Part shown: in pieces, positions 1,011-7,112 of the stretch
Layout: each line of letters opens with the position of its first letter
How positions within the stretch are numbered: position 1 is the first letter of the stretch
DNA from: a virus
Reading direction: 5' to 3' (one strand)
Length of the DNA: 39,796 nucleotides
IMG/VR virus record: IMGVR_UViG_3300017783_000066
Span: 1-39,796 of that record
Made by a program: the position numbers and the translations under genes
Notes under the pieces: generated by a model
The model's input: only the letters and a program-made list of their open reading frames with translations
The model's database searches: none
Told to the model about the DNA's origin: nothing

Positions 1011-1271
1011 TTATTTAATTTTAAAAATGTTTCCAAAATGATTTACTATCTCGAATGTAGTCTCAATGTTATTTAAATCATCCTTTAGAATCTCTTCTAT
1101 ACTATCATTGGTATATCGCATTACCTTTGTGGTATAAAAGTCCTCAATCGCATCCTCTGATGGATTGGTAGCCATAAACTCTCTGACCATACTTGGCAAA
1201 TCTTTCTTCCAATTCGCCAATTCCCTTTGCTCTCGTTTTTGAAGAAAGCCATGTAAAATTTTGTGTGACAT
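1011..1271 (-). CDS. Hypothetical protein, 86 aa
   Basis: This small charged protein has a basic N-terminus (MSHKILHGFLQKREQRELAN) and a largely helical, acidic middle. There are no cysteines, membrane segments or catalytic motifs. It is the first gene after the ArdC-like gene, and its start lies about 20 bases downstream of the palindrome that ends tRNA-like element A, so that element forms its 5' leader in a longer transcript. The ATG follows AGAAATT with no Shine-Dalgarno. I do not recognise it. Confidence 0.66.
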   Translation of the reverse strand: MSHKILHGFLQKREQRELANWKKDLPSMVREFMATNPSEDAIEDFYTTKVMRYTNDSIEEILKDDLNNIETTFEIVNHFGNIFKIK

Positions 1272-1291: not shown

Positions 1292-1346
1292 GACAATATT
1301 GTCGATGCGAGAGAGGGAATCGAACCCTCTCATGATCCAATCTCGC
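1292..1346 (-). ncRNA. tRNA-like intercistronic RNA element A
   Basis: Read on the minus strand from 1346, the sequence gives a 5-bp outer stem (GCGAG with CTCGC), an 11-nt linker ATTGGATCATG, a 6-bp stem (AGAGGG with CCCTCT) closed by the 7-nt loop TTCGATT, then ATC and the perfect palindrome GACAATATTGTC (1292-1303). The loop with its closing G-C pair is that of a canonical tRNA T-arm, and the outer stem takes the place of an acceptor stem. The D and anticodon arms are replaced by the linker. The element starts six bases after the ArdC-like gene's stop. Element B repeats the plan with different but compensated stems, so an RNA structure is well supported. Function is unknown. Confidence 0.75.
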
Positions 1347-1352
1347 TAGTGA

Positions 1353-2306
1353 TTACTTACCTTGGATGTAAGCTACAATCTTAGTAGCTTGTTGCATCGC
1401 ATATAGGCATTCTTTTGGCTTATCCTCTAAAGCCTTACACCATCCTTTGATGTAGGCAATGCTATTCTCCTTATCATCTTTTGGATCAAGTCCCAATAAC
1501 CCTGAGATGTACATGGCTGATATCTCTGCAACCAATTCCTCCTTGGCATAGGTGTTATCACCCCAAAAGGATATCTCAGTCAGGGTTTTACGATCCATTC
1601 GATCTTTGTGACCCGTTGAATGGGCTAACTCATGAAACAGTACTTTATAGTAGGAATCTGAATCTACAAACTTATTTAGCTTAGGCATATTCACAGTATC
1701 GGTTTCAACATTGTAAAATGCCCTATCTCCGAACAGATGACATACTACCAATTTACCATCTCGATCCACATAGCTTTTACTCAACTGATCAGCTATCTCT
1801 ATTGGTTTATTGTCAGCAGGAACACCAGCATCCAATACATGAGGAACAATGCCATTGCATTGATCAACATTGTATACTTGCCAATATCGGATTGAAAATG
1901 TTTTACGATATCTTAATTGCCTTTTGCCATTGATTACAATCTTTTCACTTTGATTGATTTTTTTAACGTTTTTTGATGCTACATAACATTCTTTCTTAGC
2001 ATCATAAAATCCTATTGTCCATTTGTAAACATCAGCAGTATTACCAAATTCTCCTGATTTGATTGAACCACCCAATTCTCTACAATGATTTTCCGTTAAC
2101 CATTGGTTATGCTCATAACCCTCAGCCATCATAACTGCATTGAGCATAAATACATTAAACCCTTTGTAGTAGTATTTTTTGTTGTAACTCATAGGTTGAT
2201 TCACATCTCCTGATTTCCATGGCATGAACCATTTCATCCCATCTCGCTTTAGTCCCTCTAAAACGGCATCATTAACTTTCTGAAAAATTTTGTCTTGGTT
2301 TGACAT
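1353..2306 (-). CDS. ardC: ArdC-like anti-restriction protein with zincin domain
   Basis: The 317-residue product has the two-part layout of ArdC-type anti-restriction proteins. Residues about 1-150 resemble the ArdC N-terminal single-strand DNA-binding domain (start MSNQDKIFQKVNDAVLEGLK, with the W-x-x-P-W segment near 26-30 and KGFN near 48). The C-terminal part is a zinc metallopeptidase-like domain with HELAH at 225-229 and a downstream KEELVAE near 255-261 that should supply the third ligand. In plasmids and phages this family protects incoming DNA from host restriction. I chose the ATG at 2306: the frame is open further up to an ATG at 2375, but that stretch is tRNA-like element B, so the extra 23 residues are very probably not translated. 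It sits in the early-type leftward operon, consistent with entry-stage defence. Confidence 0.85.
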   Translation of the reverse strand: MSNQDKIFQKVNDAVLEGLKRDGMKWFMPWKSGDVNQPMSYNKKYYYKGFNVFMLNAVMMAEGYEHNQWLTENHCRELGGSIKSGEFGNTADVYKWTIGFYDAKKECYVASKNVKKINQSEKIVINGKRQLRYRKTFSIRYWQVYNVDQCNGIVPHVLDAGVPADNKPIEIADQLSKSYVDRDGKLVVCHLFGDRAFYNVETDTVNMPKLNKFVDSDSYYKVLFHELAHSTGHKDRMDRKTLTEISFWGDNTYAKEELVAEISAMYISGLLGLDPKDDKENSIAYIKGWCKALEDKPKECLYAMQQATKIVAYIQGK

Positions 2307-2327
2307 ATTTGTTGGTGTTTGTTGTTT

Positions 2328-2382
2328 GACATTATTGTCGATGCCTACCGAGGAATCGAACCTCGGTACATCCAATTAGGCA
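2328..2382 (-). ncRNA. tRNA-like intercistronic RNA element B
   Basis: On the minus strand from 2382 there is an outer 6-bp stem (TGCCTA with TAGGCA), a 10-nt linker ATTGGATGTA, a 6-bp stem (CCGAGG with CCTCGG) closed by TTCGATT, then TC and the near-palindrome GACAATAATGTC. Compared with element A, the loop, the ATTGGAT linker start and the trailing ATCGACAATA are conserved, while most changed stem bases are compensated on the other strand. It begins five bases after the stop of the 38-aa zinc-ribbon-like gene and ends 21 bases before the ArdC-like start. The placement after a stop and before the next start matches element A. Confidence 0.75.
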
Positions 2383-2387
2383 GTTGA

Positions 2388-2504
2388 TTAGTTTTCTAAA
2401 CAGTCCCCACAAATATCGCAATAGTCATGTTCTTCTGCTGTCATTAGTGAATTACATATTTCACAATTCATCACATGGTCATTTTGATTTAATCCGTTTT
2501 GCAT
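2388..2504 (-). CDS. Zinc-ribbon-like miniprotein, 38 aa
   Basis: A complete 38-codon frame starts at 2504 and ends just before tRNA-like element B. It contains CEIC near residues 14-17 and CDICGDC near 29-35, a C-x2-C ... C-x2-C arrangement typical of small zinc ribbons, with a fifth Cys. Such proteins often bind nucleic acid or partner proteins; the family itself is not recognised. The gene is two bases after the stop of the previous gene, in operon order, and its leader is AATT before the ATG. The cysteine spacing makes chance translation unlikely. Confidence 0.68.
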   Translation of the reverse strand: MQNGLNQNDHVMNCEICNSLMTAEEHDYCDICGDCLEN

Positions 2505-2692: not shown

Positions 2693-3201
2693 TTTATTGT
2701 TGTTTTTAGTGTGTAACGTGCTGAGAGTGAGCAAGTTAGCGTTAGATTCTGTATGTTGTTTGTCTCTCATACTGCTAATATACATAGAATTTATATAAAT
2801 AACTAATAAAGTTTACATGAAGTTATTTGATCCAATGTTGGAAATGTTGTTTTGGGTTACAGTTTGAAGAAAATCATATTGCACAAATCGATTGGACTGA
2901 TCTAGTTTACTTACTTTGATTATTGTTTCTTTTTGGTTTTTGAGGTATTAAGCGAACGAAGTGAGCGTCCCCCAAAGGGATTATTTTTGCGAGATGTCAA
3001 ACAAAATACGGATCGACAAAGGGTGCTCTCCAGTTGACGACCTTGTAACTACCTGATGGTCAGTCAGATAAAACGTCAAAAAATCTGCAATGCACCGATC
3101 ATGCGTTACCCCACCCCTAAGTTTTTTTTTGAGTTTTTTTTTCGGGCCAGCTCGCGTATAGTATAGTATAATACAACAGTTCCGTGTATCTAATAAATTT
3201 G
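2693..3201. other. Divergent intergenic control region
   Basis: About 500 bases separate the leftward operon from the first rightward gene and contain no convincing gene. Visible features are a TAATATACATAG stretch near 2787 that may include the leftward promoter, GAACGAAGTGAG at about 2955, two adjacent long T-tracts each following an AG (about 3120-3142), and a short tandem repeat of GTATA ending in TATAAT (about 3155-3172). The part from 2950 to 3150 has a noticeably higher GC content than its surroundings. The region could hold promoters, an operator or an origin; nothing here proves which. Confidence 0.5.
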
Positions 3202-3209
3202 TATCTTTG
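3202..3209 (+). promoter_or_regulatory. Bacteroidota -7 type promoter box TATCTTTG
   Basis: TATCTTTG matches the Bacteroidota -7 consensus TAnnTTTG. The next gene's ATG begins only four bases after the box, so transcription would start at or very near the start codon and give an essentially leaderless message. No clear TTG element is found at the usual upstream distance. Confidence 0.6.
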
Positions 3210-3212
3210 ATA

Positions 3213-3368
3213 ATGTCTTATAGGCTAGAGTTATACAATAGATTACGAGTAGGGTTTGCATTAGGTTGGTCCTATTACTCTAGAGATATGAAACATGATT
3301 GGTCAGAGTTAAATATATATTTAGGTTTAATAGGTATAACAATAAAAGGATATGAAAAAAATGAGTAG
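3213..3368 (+). CDS. Hypothetical protein, 51 aa
   Basis: A complete frame starts with MSYRLELYNRLRVGFALGWS and ends with KGYEKNE. It is aromatic-rich with a hydrophobic patch (LNIYLGLIGITI) but no clear full membrane helix. It starts right behind an excellent TATCTTTG box, and its last 17 bases overlap the start of the next gene, an arrangement typical of phage operons. This is the first rightward gene after the divergent control region. I do not know its function. Confidence 0.62.
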   Translation: MSYRLELYNRLRVGFALGWSYYSRDMKHDWSELNIYLGLIGITIKGYEKNE

Positions 3369-3561
3369 AGACAACACTATCAGCGATATGGTTGACGGGT
3401 TGTATGTAAAGAACGGCAGGTTAATAAATGGAAGACCTGATAGTATGACGGGTATACAGCAGGCGGCAAATATGAAAAGGATCATTGATAATGATCGTAA
3501 GATTAAGATGATTGCTGATGGTATTGGTCGAGCTGAAATGATGAAGGGTTTGTTTGGATAA
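3352..3561 (+). CDS. Hypothetical protein, 69 aa
   Basis: This small basic, Met-rich protein (MKKMSRDNTISDMVDGLYVK at the start) has a middle reading GRPDSMTGIQQAANMKRI. It could start at 3352 or at the second Met at 3361; the first is preferred because it overlaps the upstream gene more tightly. It has no membrane segment or cysteine. A strong rho-independent terminator follows 28 bases downstream, so this gene closes a two-gene transcription unit. The family is not recognised. Confidence 0.68.
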   Translation: MKKMSRDNTISDMVDGLYVKNGRLINGRPDSMTGIQQAANMKRIIDNDRKIKMIADGIGRAEMMKGLFG

Positions 3562-3588
3562 TTTGTTGGTTAATTATCTTGATTGTGG

Positions 3589-3620
3589 AAAGGCTACTTT
3601 TACTTAGGGTAGCCTTTTTT
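3589..3620 (+). terminator. Rho-independent terminator
   Basis: A 9-bp perfect stem (AAAGGCTAC with GTAGCCTTT) with an 11-base loop is followed by further T residues. It ends the short two-gene unit that begins at 3213 and isolates it from the chaperonin operon. Confidence 0.85.
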
Positions 3621-3663
3621 GCGTTTAAAAACCAACACCTTTTTACAAAAAACTTTGAGATTT

Positions 3664-3935
3664 TAACACCAAAAAAAATATTAATGTTTTTTTAATATAT
3701 ATAAAATAGTTTTTCTATTTTACTACTTTTATTTTCTTGTTATGAAAACCGTTAAAGGTGTTAAAGTTCGACACGGGTAGTGTTAATATTGTGTTAGTTT
3801 TTAGTACTTAACTAACTGATAATCAACACTAGTGTTAGAAATGTTAATTCTTCTCGCATGAGAAAAGTAAAAAAAAATAATAAAAGAAATAAATATATAT
3901 ATAAGTAAAGGGGAAAAAAAACTAACATTCGACAC
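3664..3935. promoter_or_regulatory. Operator-like region with repeated GTGTTA motifs upstream of GroEL
   Basis: This A/T-rich region carries GTGTTA on the plus strand at 3758, 3780, 3791 and 3832, and TAACAC at 3664. The perfect 12-bp palindrome AACACTAGTGTT lies at 3825-3836. TTCGACAC occurs twice, at 3767 and 3928. The clustering just before the chaperonin promoter suggests binding sites for a regulator, possibly phage-encoded. No gene is supported here; a 12-codon frame at 3742-3780 is too short to call. Confidence 0.5.
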
Positions 3936-3942
3936 TTTTATA

Positions 3943-3950
3943 TATATTTG
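3943..3950 (+). promoter_or_regulatory. -7 type promoter box TATATTTG before GroEL
   Basis: TATATTTG fits TAnnTTTG and lies 20 bases before the GroEL start. The leader between them is made of AAATC units ending AAATCAAATG, a leader type also seen before the genes at 17668, 23455, 26164 and 35689. No TTG-type -33 element is evident. Confidence 0.55.
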
Positions 3951-3970
3951 TATAAATCAAATCAAATCAA

Positions 3971-5563
3971 ATGGATAATTCGGGAGGATATTCGCCAAAA
4001 GATTTACATTTTGGCAAGGACGCACAATCAAAACTTATATCGGGTATTACAAAACTATCAAATGCTGTTAAGAGCACATTGGGTCCAATGGGCAGTACAG
4101 TACTTATTGAAAGCCCGCATCACACCCACGGAATAACAGTTACAAAAGATGGGGTTACTGTAGCCAAAAGCATTCAGCTTTTAGATGCGGTAGAGAACCT
4201 ATCGGTACAGATGATGAAAGAGGCGGCAGATCGAACAGCCTCAGAAGCTGGTGATGGTACTACTACGGCAATTGTATTAACAGAGGCGCTTGTAAAGAAG
4301 GGCCTTGAGCTTATTGGGCCAAAGGACAATAAAACCACGATATTGCGTGAAGTAGCTGCGATTAGTGAAGAGGTGATTGAGAAGTTAAAAAAACAATCGA
4401 TACCTGTTACTAAGGAGCTCCTACTTGATGTTGCTACGATATCCTCCAATAATGACCCTGAGATTGGACAGATAATATCTGAGACATATAACCAGGTCGG
4501 TGATAATGGAATCGTAACGGTTGAGAAAAGCCAAACCTCTGATACCACTTTTGAAACTACGCAGGGGATAAAGATTGACCGGGGATACTCAAGCCATCTG
4601 TTTATAAACAACCACAAAAAGGATGAGTGTATACTTGAGGACACATATGTACTAGTTTCTGACTCTGAGATTAATAACATACTTTCTATTGAGAATGTTC
4701 TAAAGCCAATAATTGCCGAGAACAAGAAATTATTAATAGTAGCACCGTGTTCTCAAAACGTAACAAATACGTTGGCGGCTAACGTCATGAAGAACAATCT
4801 GAAACTTTGTACCATTATTCCTCCCAATTTTGGTTACAAACGCCACGAGTTGATGCATGACATCGCTCTTTCAGTAGGTGCTACTTATTTTTCTGAAAGT
4901 ACAGGTGATGACCTGAGCCTTATGACATTCAAAGATTTAGGCATGGCCAAGAAAATTATCGTAGGGAAAGACAGCACGATCATACTCAAGGATGACGACA
5001 AGGTCAGTAAGGATGACATTGACAAAAGGGTTGAGGAGCTGATGGATGCACATAAAATAACAAAGAAAAAAGCCGACAAGGATTTTATAATGTCTCGCAT
5101 CGCGTCACTCACAGGCGGTGTAGGCGTTATCTATGTCGGCGGGAACACTGACCTAGAGCAGAAAGAACTCTATGATCGGGTGGATGATGCTGTGTGTGCA
5201 GTACGATCTGCGATAGTTGAAGGTGTTCTTCCTGGAGGAGGCCTTGCACTGTGGGAGGCAGGTAAAGATATTATATTTTCAAAATCGATCGCTCACGCGA
5301 TTTTAGGTGAGGCTCTTCTAGCTCCTTTAATTCAAATAATTGAGAACGCTGGGGTTGACTGGGCACCTTATGGTGCCGATAAAGGCCACGGACTAGATGT
5401 AAAAACAGGAAAAGAAGGAGATATGATTGAGATGGGAATAATAGATCCTCTGAAGGTTACGCGGACGGCGCTGCAAAATGCTGTGTCTGTCGCCACCACG
5501 ATACTATCAACAAACGCCATTGTTACTATGGCTAGGAGTTATGAGCAAAAAAACATTGAATGA
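3971..5563 (+). CDS. groEL: Phage-encoded GroEL-type chaperonin
   Basis: The 530-residue protein is a group I chaperonin, close to the 548 residues of E. coli GroEL. Motifs appear in the expected order: TLGPMG near 36-41, KDGVTVAK at 59-66, the nucleotide-binding GDGTTTA at 94-100, RVDDAV before GVLPGGGLAL near 418-427, and IDPLKVTR near 490. The Asp residues equivalent to GroEL D52, D87 and D398 are all present, so ATP hydrolysis should be intact. The usual Gly-Gly-Met tail is missing; the protein ends EQKNIE. It is the first gene of an operon with a 56-aa gene and a GroES. Phage GroELs are known in a minority of tailed phages and fold capsid or other virion proteins. Its likely clients here are the capsid and the very large tail proteins, which is inference. 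Confidence 0.95.
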   Translation: MDNSGGYSPKDLHFGKDAQSKLISGITKLSNAVKSTLGPMGSTVLIESPHHTHGITVTKDGVTVAKSIQLLDAVENLSVQMMKEAADRTASEAGDGTTTAIVLTEALVKKGLELIGPKDNKTTILREVAAISEEVIEKLKKQSIPVTKELLLDVATISSNNDPEIGQIISETYNQVGDNGIVTVEKSQTSDTTFETTQGIKIDRGYSSHLFINNHKKDECILEDTYVLVSDSEINNILSIENVLKPIIAENKKLLIVAPCSQNVTNTLAANVMKNNLKLCTIIPPNFGYKRHELMHDIALSVGATYFSESTGDDLSLMTFKDLGMAKKIIVGKDSTIILKDDDKVSKDDIDKRVEELMDAHKITKKKADKDFIMSRIASLTGGVGVIYVGGNTDLEQKELYDRVDDAVCAVRSAIVEGVLPGGGLALWEAGKDIIFSKSIAHAILGEALLAPLIQIIENAGVDWAPYGADKGHGLDVKTGKEGDMIEMGIIDPLKVTRTALQNAVSVATTILSTNAIVTMARSYEQKNIE

Positions 5564-5711
5564 TGACCCTATTTTATCTGAAGAAGACGCAAATATACTA
5601 GCAGAGATAATAGCTAATAAATTAATAATTGAGAAGCTTAGTAAATCAATAAAAGGAAAATCAGTTTTTGGAGTAGTACTTGAGATATTATCTGAATATA
5701 GAAGTTTATGA
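5541..5711 (+). CDS. Small helical protein between GroEL and GroES, 56 aa
   Basis: The frame MSKKTLNDDPILSEEDANIL... overlaps the end of GroEL by 23 bases and its stop overlaps the GroES start (ATGA), so it is translationally locked into the chaperonin operon. It is a charged, helical peptide with no cysteine or membrane segment. I do not recognise it. Its position between the chaperonin and co-chaperonin genes suggests an adaptor or a modulator of the chaperonin, but there is no motif evidence. Confidence 0.72.
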   Translation: MSKKTLNDDPILSEEDANILAEIIANKLIIEKLSKSIKGKSVFGVVLEILSEYRSL

Positions 5712-5965
5712 AACCAATTGGAAAATACGTTGTGATTAAAACCATTGAGGAGGAACTCAAAACCTCTTCGGGATTATTACTTTCTGCGGAGGATGCGAAC
5801 CAGCTTCGGTATAAGAAGGGGAGGATTGTTGAGGTAGGTACTGATGTTGTAGCTATCGATAAGGATAGCCTGATATATTATGATAAGCGCGCGGGATATA
5901 CTATGCTTATTCATGATGAGCCGTATACGATTATTCGTGAGAATGACATTGTTCTTGTCGAATAG
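5708..5965 (+). CDS. groES: GroES-type co-chaperonin
   Basis: The 85-residue product has the GroES ten-stranded fold pattern: an N-terminal strand (MKPIGKYVVIKTIEEELKT), a mobile loop reading SSGLLLSAEDA near 19-29 that should dock onto GroEL, a central KGRIVEVGTD segment, and a C-terminal PYTIIRENDIVLVE matching the GroES ending. It is about twelve residues shorter than E. coli GroES. It caps the phage GroEL ring during folding. Its last 35 bases overlap the convergent regulator gene on the other strand. Confidence 0.88.
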   Translation: MKPIGKYVVIKTIEEELKTSSGLLLSAEDANQLRYKKGRIVEVGTDVVAIDKDSLIYYDKRAGYTMLIHDEPYTIIRENDIVLVE

Positions 5966-6383
5966 CTTCGTTCATTTTTAGAATTTGTTTTCTATAAACC
6001 TTATCGCTATATCCTATCTCAGCCATAAAAATTGGATTGTTAGACTTGGCTGTTGGGATCATACCACCATCCAATTTATCGTATATTGACCCTAGCATTC
6101 TGTTGGCTTTAAATGACAAACCATAAAGGGCTTTCTTTCTTTCTCGTCTGTTGTATGGTCTTATAACTTCAATCCATCCCTCTTGACGGAGTTTGTTAAA
6201 TCTATTTTTATTCCAGCCTAGCACTGAATTAAACTCTTGAAATTTATCCACGTTAAAGTATTCTTCGCTGTATAAAAATAGTAGCATGTCTAGTTCTTGA
6301 GTGTTAACTTTATACTTTCTCATGACGAAGTATCGGATGACTCTCCAGTATTTCAAGTAGTCTCTATTTCTTGAATTTTTCAT
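5931..6383 (-). CDS. Winged-helix (MarR-like) regulator
   Basis: The 150-residue protein resembles small phage winged-helix proteins. NTQELDMLLFLYSEEYF near 27-43 looks like the first helices, WNKNRFNKLRQEGWIEVIRP near 58-77 like the recognition helix and first wing, and RKKALYGLSFKANRML near 83-98 like the second wing and dimer helix. It is the only leftward gene between two rightward blocks. Its start lies at overlapping divergent promoters, so it may regulate itself and the membrane-protein gene opposite. Its 3' end overlaps the groES end. The MarR-like assignment comes from pattern recognition and is moderately certain. Confidence 0.65.
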   Translation of the reverse strand: MKNSRNRDYLKYWRVIRYFVMRKYKVNTQELDMLLFLYSEEYFNVDKFQEFNSVLGWNKNRFNKLRQEGWIEVIRPYNRRERKKALYGLSFKANRMLGSIYDKLDGGMIPTAKSNNPIFMAEIGYSDKVYRKQILKMNEAIRQEQCHSHE

Positions 6384-6397
6384 TAGATTTAATTTTA

Positions 6398-6436
6398 TAA
6401 CTTTGTATAAAGATATTTATTATTATACGCATGCAA
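6398..6436. promoter_or_regulatory. Overlapping divergent promoters
   Basis: Rightward, TAACTTTG at 6398-6405 fits the -7 box for the gene at 6431. Leftward, TATCTTTA (fwd 6408-6415) fits a -7 box for the regulator starting at 6383, with TTG 18 bases further upstream (fwd 6434-6436), a good -33 spacing. The two boxes overlap around CTTTGTATAAAG, whose arms are inverted repeats, a plausible autoregulatory site. Confidence 0.55.
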
Positions 6437-6799
6437 AAAGATATTGCCAAAGAAATTAGGAACTACGCTGGAGCGCTAGGAATATTTATAGTGGTTATTG
6501 GATTATTATTTTTCTTATCCTTTAACCAAATACCAACAGAAAACAAAGATTTATTCGTTTCAATAGTTGGTGTTATATCGGGATCCTTGTCTGTAATTTT
6601 ATTTACAATCATAGGAAGAAACCCAAATGAGGTACAAGAACTTAAAAATGCAAATGAAAAACTAAGCGGTCAAGTGCATCAATTGATAAGGCAGAAAGAC
6701 GAACTCGAAGGAATGCTTATAGAGATGCAAAAAGAAATTGTAGATAAACTATCAATTGCTGGAGTATACTTTGAATTAAAAAATAAAAAGAAAGAATAA
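6431..6799 (+). CDS. Membrane protein with coiled coil, 122 aa
   Basis: Two hydrophobic helices are visible, near 13-31 (AGALGIFIVVIGLLFFLSF) and 42-62. A charged coiled-coil segment follows at about 67-110 (ELKNANEKLSGQVHQLIRQK). This gives a hairpin in the inner membrane with a cytoplasmic coiled-coil tail. It could be a holin-like or membrane-anchored assembly factor; neither can be shown. It is the first rightward gene after the divergent promoter pair, 28 bases before the small-protein array. Confidence 0.7.
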   Translation: MQKDIAKEIRNYAGALGIFIVVIGLLFFLSFNQIPTENKDLFVSIVGVISGSLSVILFTIIGRNPNEVQELKNANEKLSGQVHQLIRQKDELEGMLIEMQKEIVDKLSIAGVYFELKNKKKE

Positions 6800-6827
6800 T
6801 AATTTAACTTAATCAAAATTAGAAATC

Positions 6828-6953
6828 ATGGCAAATAAAAAAACAGAAACAAAAAAATCTGCTCCAAAAAAAGAAGCAGCACCTCAAAAAGCCGCCGCCC
6901 CCAAAACAAGAAAACTTTGGAATGGTGAGCAGTATGTAACAGTTAATATATAA
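6828..6953 (+). CDS. Lys/Ala-rich small protein, 41 aa
   Basis: The frame starts MANKKTETKKSAPKKEAAPQ, continues with an Ala/Pro/Lys tract, and ends in a compact RKLWNGEQYVTVNI. The N-terminal two thirds look disordered and strongly basic, like a histone-tail-type segment, and the end is a short conserved-looking beta motif. It opens an array of ten small proteins with tiny or overlapping junctions. It is too short to classify; DNA or RNA binding is possible. Confidence 0.68.
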   Translation: MANKKTETKKSAPKKEAAPQKAAAPKTRKLWNGEQYVTVNI

Positions 6954-6956
6954 ATT

Positions 6957-7112
6957 ATGCCTACAGTAAAACTACCTAACGGAACAAAAAGAACTTTTCC
7001 TTACAACGCAGTAGGAAAAGCACAAGCACATTCATTTGCCAAAATGACAAAAGGTAAAATGAAAAACAACCCTGGATATGGGATGGAGAAAAAAACTAAG
7101 TCTGGTTACTAA
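6957..7112 (+). CDS. Small basic protein, 51 aa
   Basis: MPTVKLPNGTKRTFPYNAVG opens a lysine-rich 51-residue protein with a NNPGYG motif near the C-terminus. It starts three bases after the preceding stop and its TAA shares a base with the next ATG (TAATG), indicating translational coupling. The family is not securely recognised. Confidence 0.72.
   Translation: MPTVKLPNGTKRTFPYNAVGKAQAHSFAKMTKGKMKNNPGYGMEKKTKSGY

Follow-up and report, generated by a model that had tools for sequence, protein, structure and literature searches.

We identified a class of tRNA-like RNA elements without an anticodon arm (mini-tRNAs) in phage genomes, and we think it probable that they act as mRNA processing signals cut by host tRNA-maturation nucleases, most likely RNase P. 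What we observe is a covarying structure, a signature in tRNA register, sense placement between genes and the sharing of genomic slots with hammerhead ribozymes; cutting by RNase P or RNase Z is an inference, which rests on hammerhead slot replacement and on C74/A76 in tRNA register. Two copies, A and B, lie in the virus record under study (IMGVR_UViG_3300017783_000066; 39,796 bases, the whole of which we call the window). Element A separates an ardC-like anti-restriction gene, whose stop codon precedes it, from an 86-aa gene, and element B lies between a 38-aa ORF and ardC. The parts of both elements and the neighbouring genes are as follows.

1292–1347, minus strand: element A as a whole, mini-tRNA plus 3′ tail hairpin (covariation; found by an independent model)
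1342–1347, minus strand: A, 5′ strand of the acceptor-like stem, AGCGAG, pairing with 1306–1311, outermost A-A unpaired (subfamily covariation)
1334–1342, minus strand: A, mini D-arm GAU-UGG-AUC, with the UGG triloop at 1339–1337; G1342 of its outer G-C pair is also used by the acceptor stem (D-stem covariation in the class)
1312–1330, minus strand: A, T-arm AGAGGG-TTCGATT-CCCTCT (folding; subfamily covariation)
1306–1311, minus strand: A, 3′ strand of the acceptor-like stem, CTCGC(A) (subfamily covariation)
1302–1305, minus strand: A, TCGA as N73-C74-N75-A76, counted from the T-loop (class register)
1292–1303, minus strand: A, tail hairpin GACA-ATAT-TGTC (comparison with relatives)
2328–2382, minus strand: element B as a whole, mini-tRNA plus 3′ tail hairpin (covariation; found by an independent model)
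2377–2382, minus strand: B, 5′ strand of the acceptor-like stem, TGCCTA, pairing with TAGGCA at 2342–2347 (subfamily covariation)
2370–2376, minus strand: B, mini D-arm AU-UGG-AU (D-stem covariation in the class)
2348–2366, minus strand: B, T-arm CCGAGG-TTCGATT-CCTCGG (relatives show compensatory A-U to G-C changes)
2342–2347, minus strand: B, 3′ strand of the acceptor-like stem, TAGGCA (subfamily covariation)
2338–2341, minus strand: B, TCGA as N73-C74-N75-A76, counted from the T-loop (class register)
2328–2339, minus strand: B, tail hairpin GACA-ATAA-TGTC (comparison with relatives)
1353–2306, minus strand: ardC-like anti-restriction gene (ArdcN and MPTase-PolyVal Pfam domains), with B upstream and A downstream
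1011–1271, minus strand: 86-aa gene downstream of A, no Pfam match
2388–2504, minus strand: 38-aa ORF upstream of B, no Pfam match

The first-pass annotation had described A and B as tRNA-like elements on the minus strand, a few bases after a stop codon and about 20 before the next start, and we confirmed both the positions and the spacing: each 5′ end lies 5 nt past a stop codon and each 3′ end 20–21 nt ahead of an ATG. The exact T-arm string GGTTCGATTCC occurs twice in the whole record, in A and B only. ARAGORN called 0 tRNA genes in the window, recognising neither element, and Rfam 15 returned no family at or above its gathering score there, leaving both unrecognised. The window also encodes, on the plus strand, a phage chaperonin pair (Cpn60/GroEL-like, 3971–5563; Cpn10/GroES-like, 5708–5965).

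That the stems of A and B differ while remaining paired had been taken as strong evidence of RNA structure. The structure proved real in relatives, but two copies alone are no proof of it, nor is folding of one sequence: compared with shuffles, A and B showed only a weak advantage (z −1.7 and −3.0), and for B the thermodynamic prediction alone favours a different pairing. An IMG/VR pattern scan combined with an ArdC protein search recovered close relatives with the same elements in the same slots, and these establish the fold. In the window subfamily (7 distinct members), 98.8% of stem cells are paired and 8/12 pairs show double compensatory changes; paired cells and covariation score were matched by 0/500 shuffles. 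For the wider class, a 27-member gap-free alignment gave 99.5% paired cells, changes on both sides in 14/15 pairs and a covariation of 1.05 versus 0.20 ± 0.02. The further copies with compensatory changes whose absence would have refuted the first-pass idea were thus found, and a model that excluded the window's own copies recovered both elements, with E=1.1e-11 for A and 7e-7 for B. A descriptor requiring the T-loop, two stems and TGG between them, with no demand for D-stem pairs, matched 22 copies over 23 phage records, all within records G000–G005, G010, G014, G015 and G021, versus 0.0 in five dinucleotide shuffles. A second scan using a different linker string returned 68 contigs; 66 loci were newly retrieved from it, and 61 of them had the same fold. 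The whole collection comprises 199 distinct copies, Gordonia and Mycobacterium phages included. Nitrincola phage 1M3-16 matched the pattern without the fold and was left out of these counts.

Pairing in the main stems is partly built in by how the copies were selected; that of the D-stem is not. The stretch ATTGGAT, first read as a linker, is instead a covarying mini D-arm in which a UGG triloop is closed by 2–3 bp, with stems GCA/UGC, GCU/AGC, GUU/AAC, GUA/UAC, GAA/UUC and GAU/AUC seen across the class. For the first D-stem pair, the open IMG/VR scan held A-U at least 47 times and U-A at least 45 times, versus at least 6 A-A and at least 3 U-U mismatches; among copies with the full fold, A-U and U-A each occurred at least 44 times, versus mismatches at least once each. 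The second pair, in full-fold copies among the matches listed, is mostly C-G, A-U or U-A. We dropped a pseudoknot between linker and tail (ATTGGAT with ATC-GA-CAAT), since in the wider class changes in one are independent of changes in the other, and the linker forms its own pairs as the D-arm. An HDV-like reading was also rejected, its P2 and P1.1 partners both being missing.

Members of the class thus have three parts: the acceptor-like stem, the mini D-arm, and a T-arm whose 7-nt loop has the form TTCGANT. The acceptor-like stem and T-stem total 11–13 bp; in tRNA they total 12 bp. The T-loop is TTCGANT in 65/69 copies, U55-C56 being nearly invariant, and a few copies have positions 54 and 58 swapped (ATCGTNT). 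Counting past the T-loop, nt 14 (the place of C74) is C in 64% of copies and in every member of the 27-member set, and nt 16 (A76) is A in 51%, whereas nt 15 (C75) is C in only 14%, so that C75 is avoided; the window copies read T-C-G-A at N73-C74-N75-A76. The elements therefore meet the tRNA criteria of an acceptor plus T-stem of about 12 bp, a 7-nt T-loop and C74. Two further criteria are not met: the 10–15 nt between the main stems are occupied by the mini D-arm alone, leaving no anticodon arm, and CCA occurs within the first 5 nt in only 14/199 copies. For the tmRNA model (RF00023), whose gathering score is 47, the window gave 8.6 bits and L003 gave 15.4, on the T-arm only. The earlier idea that the linker GG mimics the D-loop contact with the T-loop is strengthened, because UGG makes up the loop of the mini D-arm, which covaries, and U55-C56 is nearly invariant; the docking itself is inferred.

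The GACAAT-ATTGTC palindrome next to the elements had been proposed as a second processing or protein site. It is present and conserved in the window subfamily, but as a short 3′ hairpin; it also recurs in some other phages (e.g., L207) and is not universal. In relatives the hairpin is of RNA type and has changed stems, so GACAATATTGTC need not be read as a DNA operator, although such a site is not excluded. We noted several other variable structures. In L207, eight mini-tRNAs occupy about 4 kb (2942–6960); each has a tail hairpin of its own behind it, strongly varying, and most also share a GTAAACCAA-type leader. A leader hairpin with a conserved CACTCTC loop precedes the operon's first gene in the window (2715–2760, minus strand) and in L003 (885–920), its stems differing between relatives with pairing mostly kept. 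In L056, L057 and L061–L064, an unidentified recurrent element of roughly the form CACC...CCTCGCTA-loop-TAGCGGGG-TTTTGGTGGTAGAAA lies 3′ of ardC, and its stems vary.

Across the class, the elements lie in sense orientation with a stop codon just before and the next start after. A same-strand stop just upstream together with an ATG ORF just downstream was found for 48/69 distinct copies, compared with 8% of random positions and 5/69 in antisense. In 54/155 copies the first stem shares bases with the upstream stop codon, the overlap being 4–12 nt in 12 of these. The class is recurrent in phages of several bacterial phyla: Gordonia phage Octobien14 carries elements between genes 140/139 and 137/136, and the Wildcat-group mycobacteriophages MaryV and Cosmo are also carriers. 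Annotated start codons overlap elements in MaryV (2662–2706 and 5612–5657) and Octobien14 (3341–3389), so the true gene starts may lie downstream. Among 198 bacterial genomes from the phylum of a Cytophagaceae MAG, only 2 contained a match at E≤1e-5, one of them the seed, and the class therefore looks phage-borne. BLAST of windows against named phages mostly gave no match, and tblastn of ArdC found remote ArdC only.

One pointer to function is the sharing of these positions with ribozymes. The slot upstream of ardC holds a mini-tRNA in the window, G001 and G002, a type I hammerhead in G003 and L085, and a type III hammerhead in G019 and G021; in G004 it holds a likely type II hammerhead, not a certain one, since stem II is short and bulged and the Rfam threshold was not reached. 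The slot downstream of ardC is filled by a mini-tRNA in the window and G001–G005 and by a type III hammerhead in G019 and G021. A hammerhead descriptor gave 11 hits versus 0–1 in shuffles, and one type III hammerhead scored E=1.2e-5 in Rfam, under the gathering cutoff. Other mini-tRNA loci contain 16 more hammerhead candidates, not all equally convincing. The hammerhead core (CUGANGA...GAAA with three stems) is missing from A and B, and none was found in the window. Where type I hammerheads overlap a stop codon, the cut lies on the 3′ side. The type III hammerheads start about 22–27 nt past the stop codon behind a strong hairpin whose stem varies between phages (L086/L081, L006, L003 and L014/L048, in G021/G019, G003, G001 and G004), so both cut ends would carry structure. 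On either side of ardA, in an Agrobacterium region that contains phage genes, lie hammerheads that cleave polycistronic RNA both in vitro and upon transcription in E. coli (PMC3088659). By the simplest interpretation, mini-tRNA and hammerhead both cut the transcript between genes; for the mini-tRNA this cleavage is inferred, and its position, common with that of self-cutting ribozymes, makes it a probable cut site that splits long messages.

In the proposed mechanism, the acceptor-like stem would stack on the T-stem to form an 11–13 bp helix, the UGG loop of the mini D-arm would dock on the T-loop to give a tRNA-like elbow, and the 3′ flank, N73-C74-(not C)75-A76, would present part of a tRNA end. 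Recognition of the element by host tRNA-maturation nucleases may then lead to cutting of the polycistronic transcript where two genes meet; the most likely cutter is RNase P, acting on the 5′ side, and a 3′-side cut is optional. Neighbouring messages would thereby be separated, with at least one new end keeping a structure, and hammerheads would fill the same role in the same slots of related phages. The enzyme, the side of the cut and any effect on expression are all inferred, there being no RNA-end data. Bacterial RNase P cuts model substrates consisting of acceptor and T-arm; it relies on the T-loop, uses 12 bp as a ruler and pairs with the RCC end (PMC11143913). A C74-to-G change abolished cleavage of a pseudoknot substrate (PMC12710915). 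The phage elements have the T-loop and T-stem, the ruler and, from the 3′ RCC, C74. Against RNase P, C75 is avoided although the enzyme pairs with both C74 and C75, and the first stem position is not strongly G. We lean slightly towards a broader interpretation, that mini-tRNAs are a widespread phage mRNA punctuation interchangeable with hammerheads, in which junctions of early operons carry their own cutter or borrow a host tRNA-processing enzyme, sometimes with many cuts per genome.

Where the first stem overlaps the stop codon, a 5′ cut would leave a non-stop message; C74 favours RNase P and the 5′ side, but this overlap in about a third of copies leaves 5′ versus 3′ undecided, and both cuts may occur. 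An RNase Z-like cut on the 3′ side only, with the mini-tRNA staying as a protective 3′ end of the upstream message, would spare a stop codon that the first stem often abuts or overlaps, would match the type I hammerheads at such positions and would suit the rarity of an intact CCA. Conserved C at position 74 is unexpected at an RNase Z site, C74-C75 being disfavoured by that enzyme, and we regard this reading as unlikely while keeping it in mind. It is more doubtful still that the element stays uncut and serves, as a stable structure or a binding site for protein, to protect mRNA ends or insulate translation: the constant location between stop and start and the tail hairpins of a subset would fit, but simple hairpins would suffice for this, and the full tRNA mimicry and the replacement by ribozymes would be left unexplained.

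The slots in common with hammerheads and the presence of invariant unpaired bases could also point to a new small self-cleaving ribozyme. We give this little credence, as the invariant bases coincide with the tRNA elbow plus C74/A76 in tRNA register, and no known ribozyme family in Rfam was matched. Action in trans, with an excised mini-tRNA occupying RNase P, T-loop-modifying enzymes or tRNA-targeting defence factors, draws on the complete set of elbow parts and on the many copies in some phages (8 in L207), yet the anticodon loop, the usual target of tRNA-cutting toxins, is absent and the fixed intergenic position suggests a role in cis, making this very improbable. Decayed tRNA genes or attachment-site (attP) remnants are scarcely credible: the T-arm does resemble tRNA genes, and some phages of the class have tRNA arrays, but strong covariation, constant architecture and many copies with different stems, none arising in shuffles, speak against decay, and the records with ardC elements lack tRNA genes, bar one apparently spurious call overlapping element A in G002.

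Processing by host tRNA-maturation nucleases, our preferred reading, suggests that phages use tRNA mimicry for cutting their own messages. Because slots alternate between ribozyme and tRNA mimic, mini-tRNAs also bear on why self-cleaving ribozymes sit between phage genes. Wildcat-group phages (Mycobacterium smegmatis mc2 155) and Octobien14 (Gordonia terrae 3612) are laboratory-tractable carriers of what is apparently an undescribed, widespread class of structured RNA. No such element in phage mRNA had been known to the first-pass annotation, and our search of the open-access literature, with subscription papers outside its scope, found no description of one.

Several known systems resemble the mini-tRNA in part. 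The RNase P minihelix substrates AT1 and pMini share its coaxial acceptor and T-stem, 7-nt T-loop and 3′ C74, but are synthetic (PMC11143913), whereas the phage element occurs naturally within mRNA, with a mini D-arm and with C75 avoided. In organellar t-elements and tRNA punctuation, a tRNA-like structure likewise marks a message end for tRNA-processing enzymes; these belong to organelles and have another architecture, in contrast to the fixed anticodon-less fold in phage operons. The tRNA-like domain of tmRNA has an acceptor stem, a T-arm and a reduced D-region with GG, but tmRNA possesses a CCA end and an mRNA-like domain. The hammerheads of phage-like operons (Rfam Hammerhead families; PMC3088659) occupy the same intergenic slots, including those beside ardC in close relatives, with a self-cleaving three-way core that lacks any tRNA resemblance. 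The P1/P7 C4 antisense RNA and T4 gene 32 mRNA are phage RNAs reported as RNase P substrates (cited in PMC11143913); these are single cases with other folds, unlike the recurrent, covarying mini-tRNAs. tRNA-like processing signals are therefore already known, and what appears to be new is an anticodon-less class with a mini D-arm in phage mRNA.
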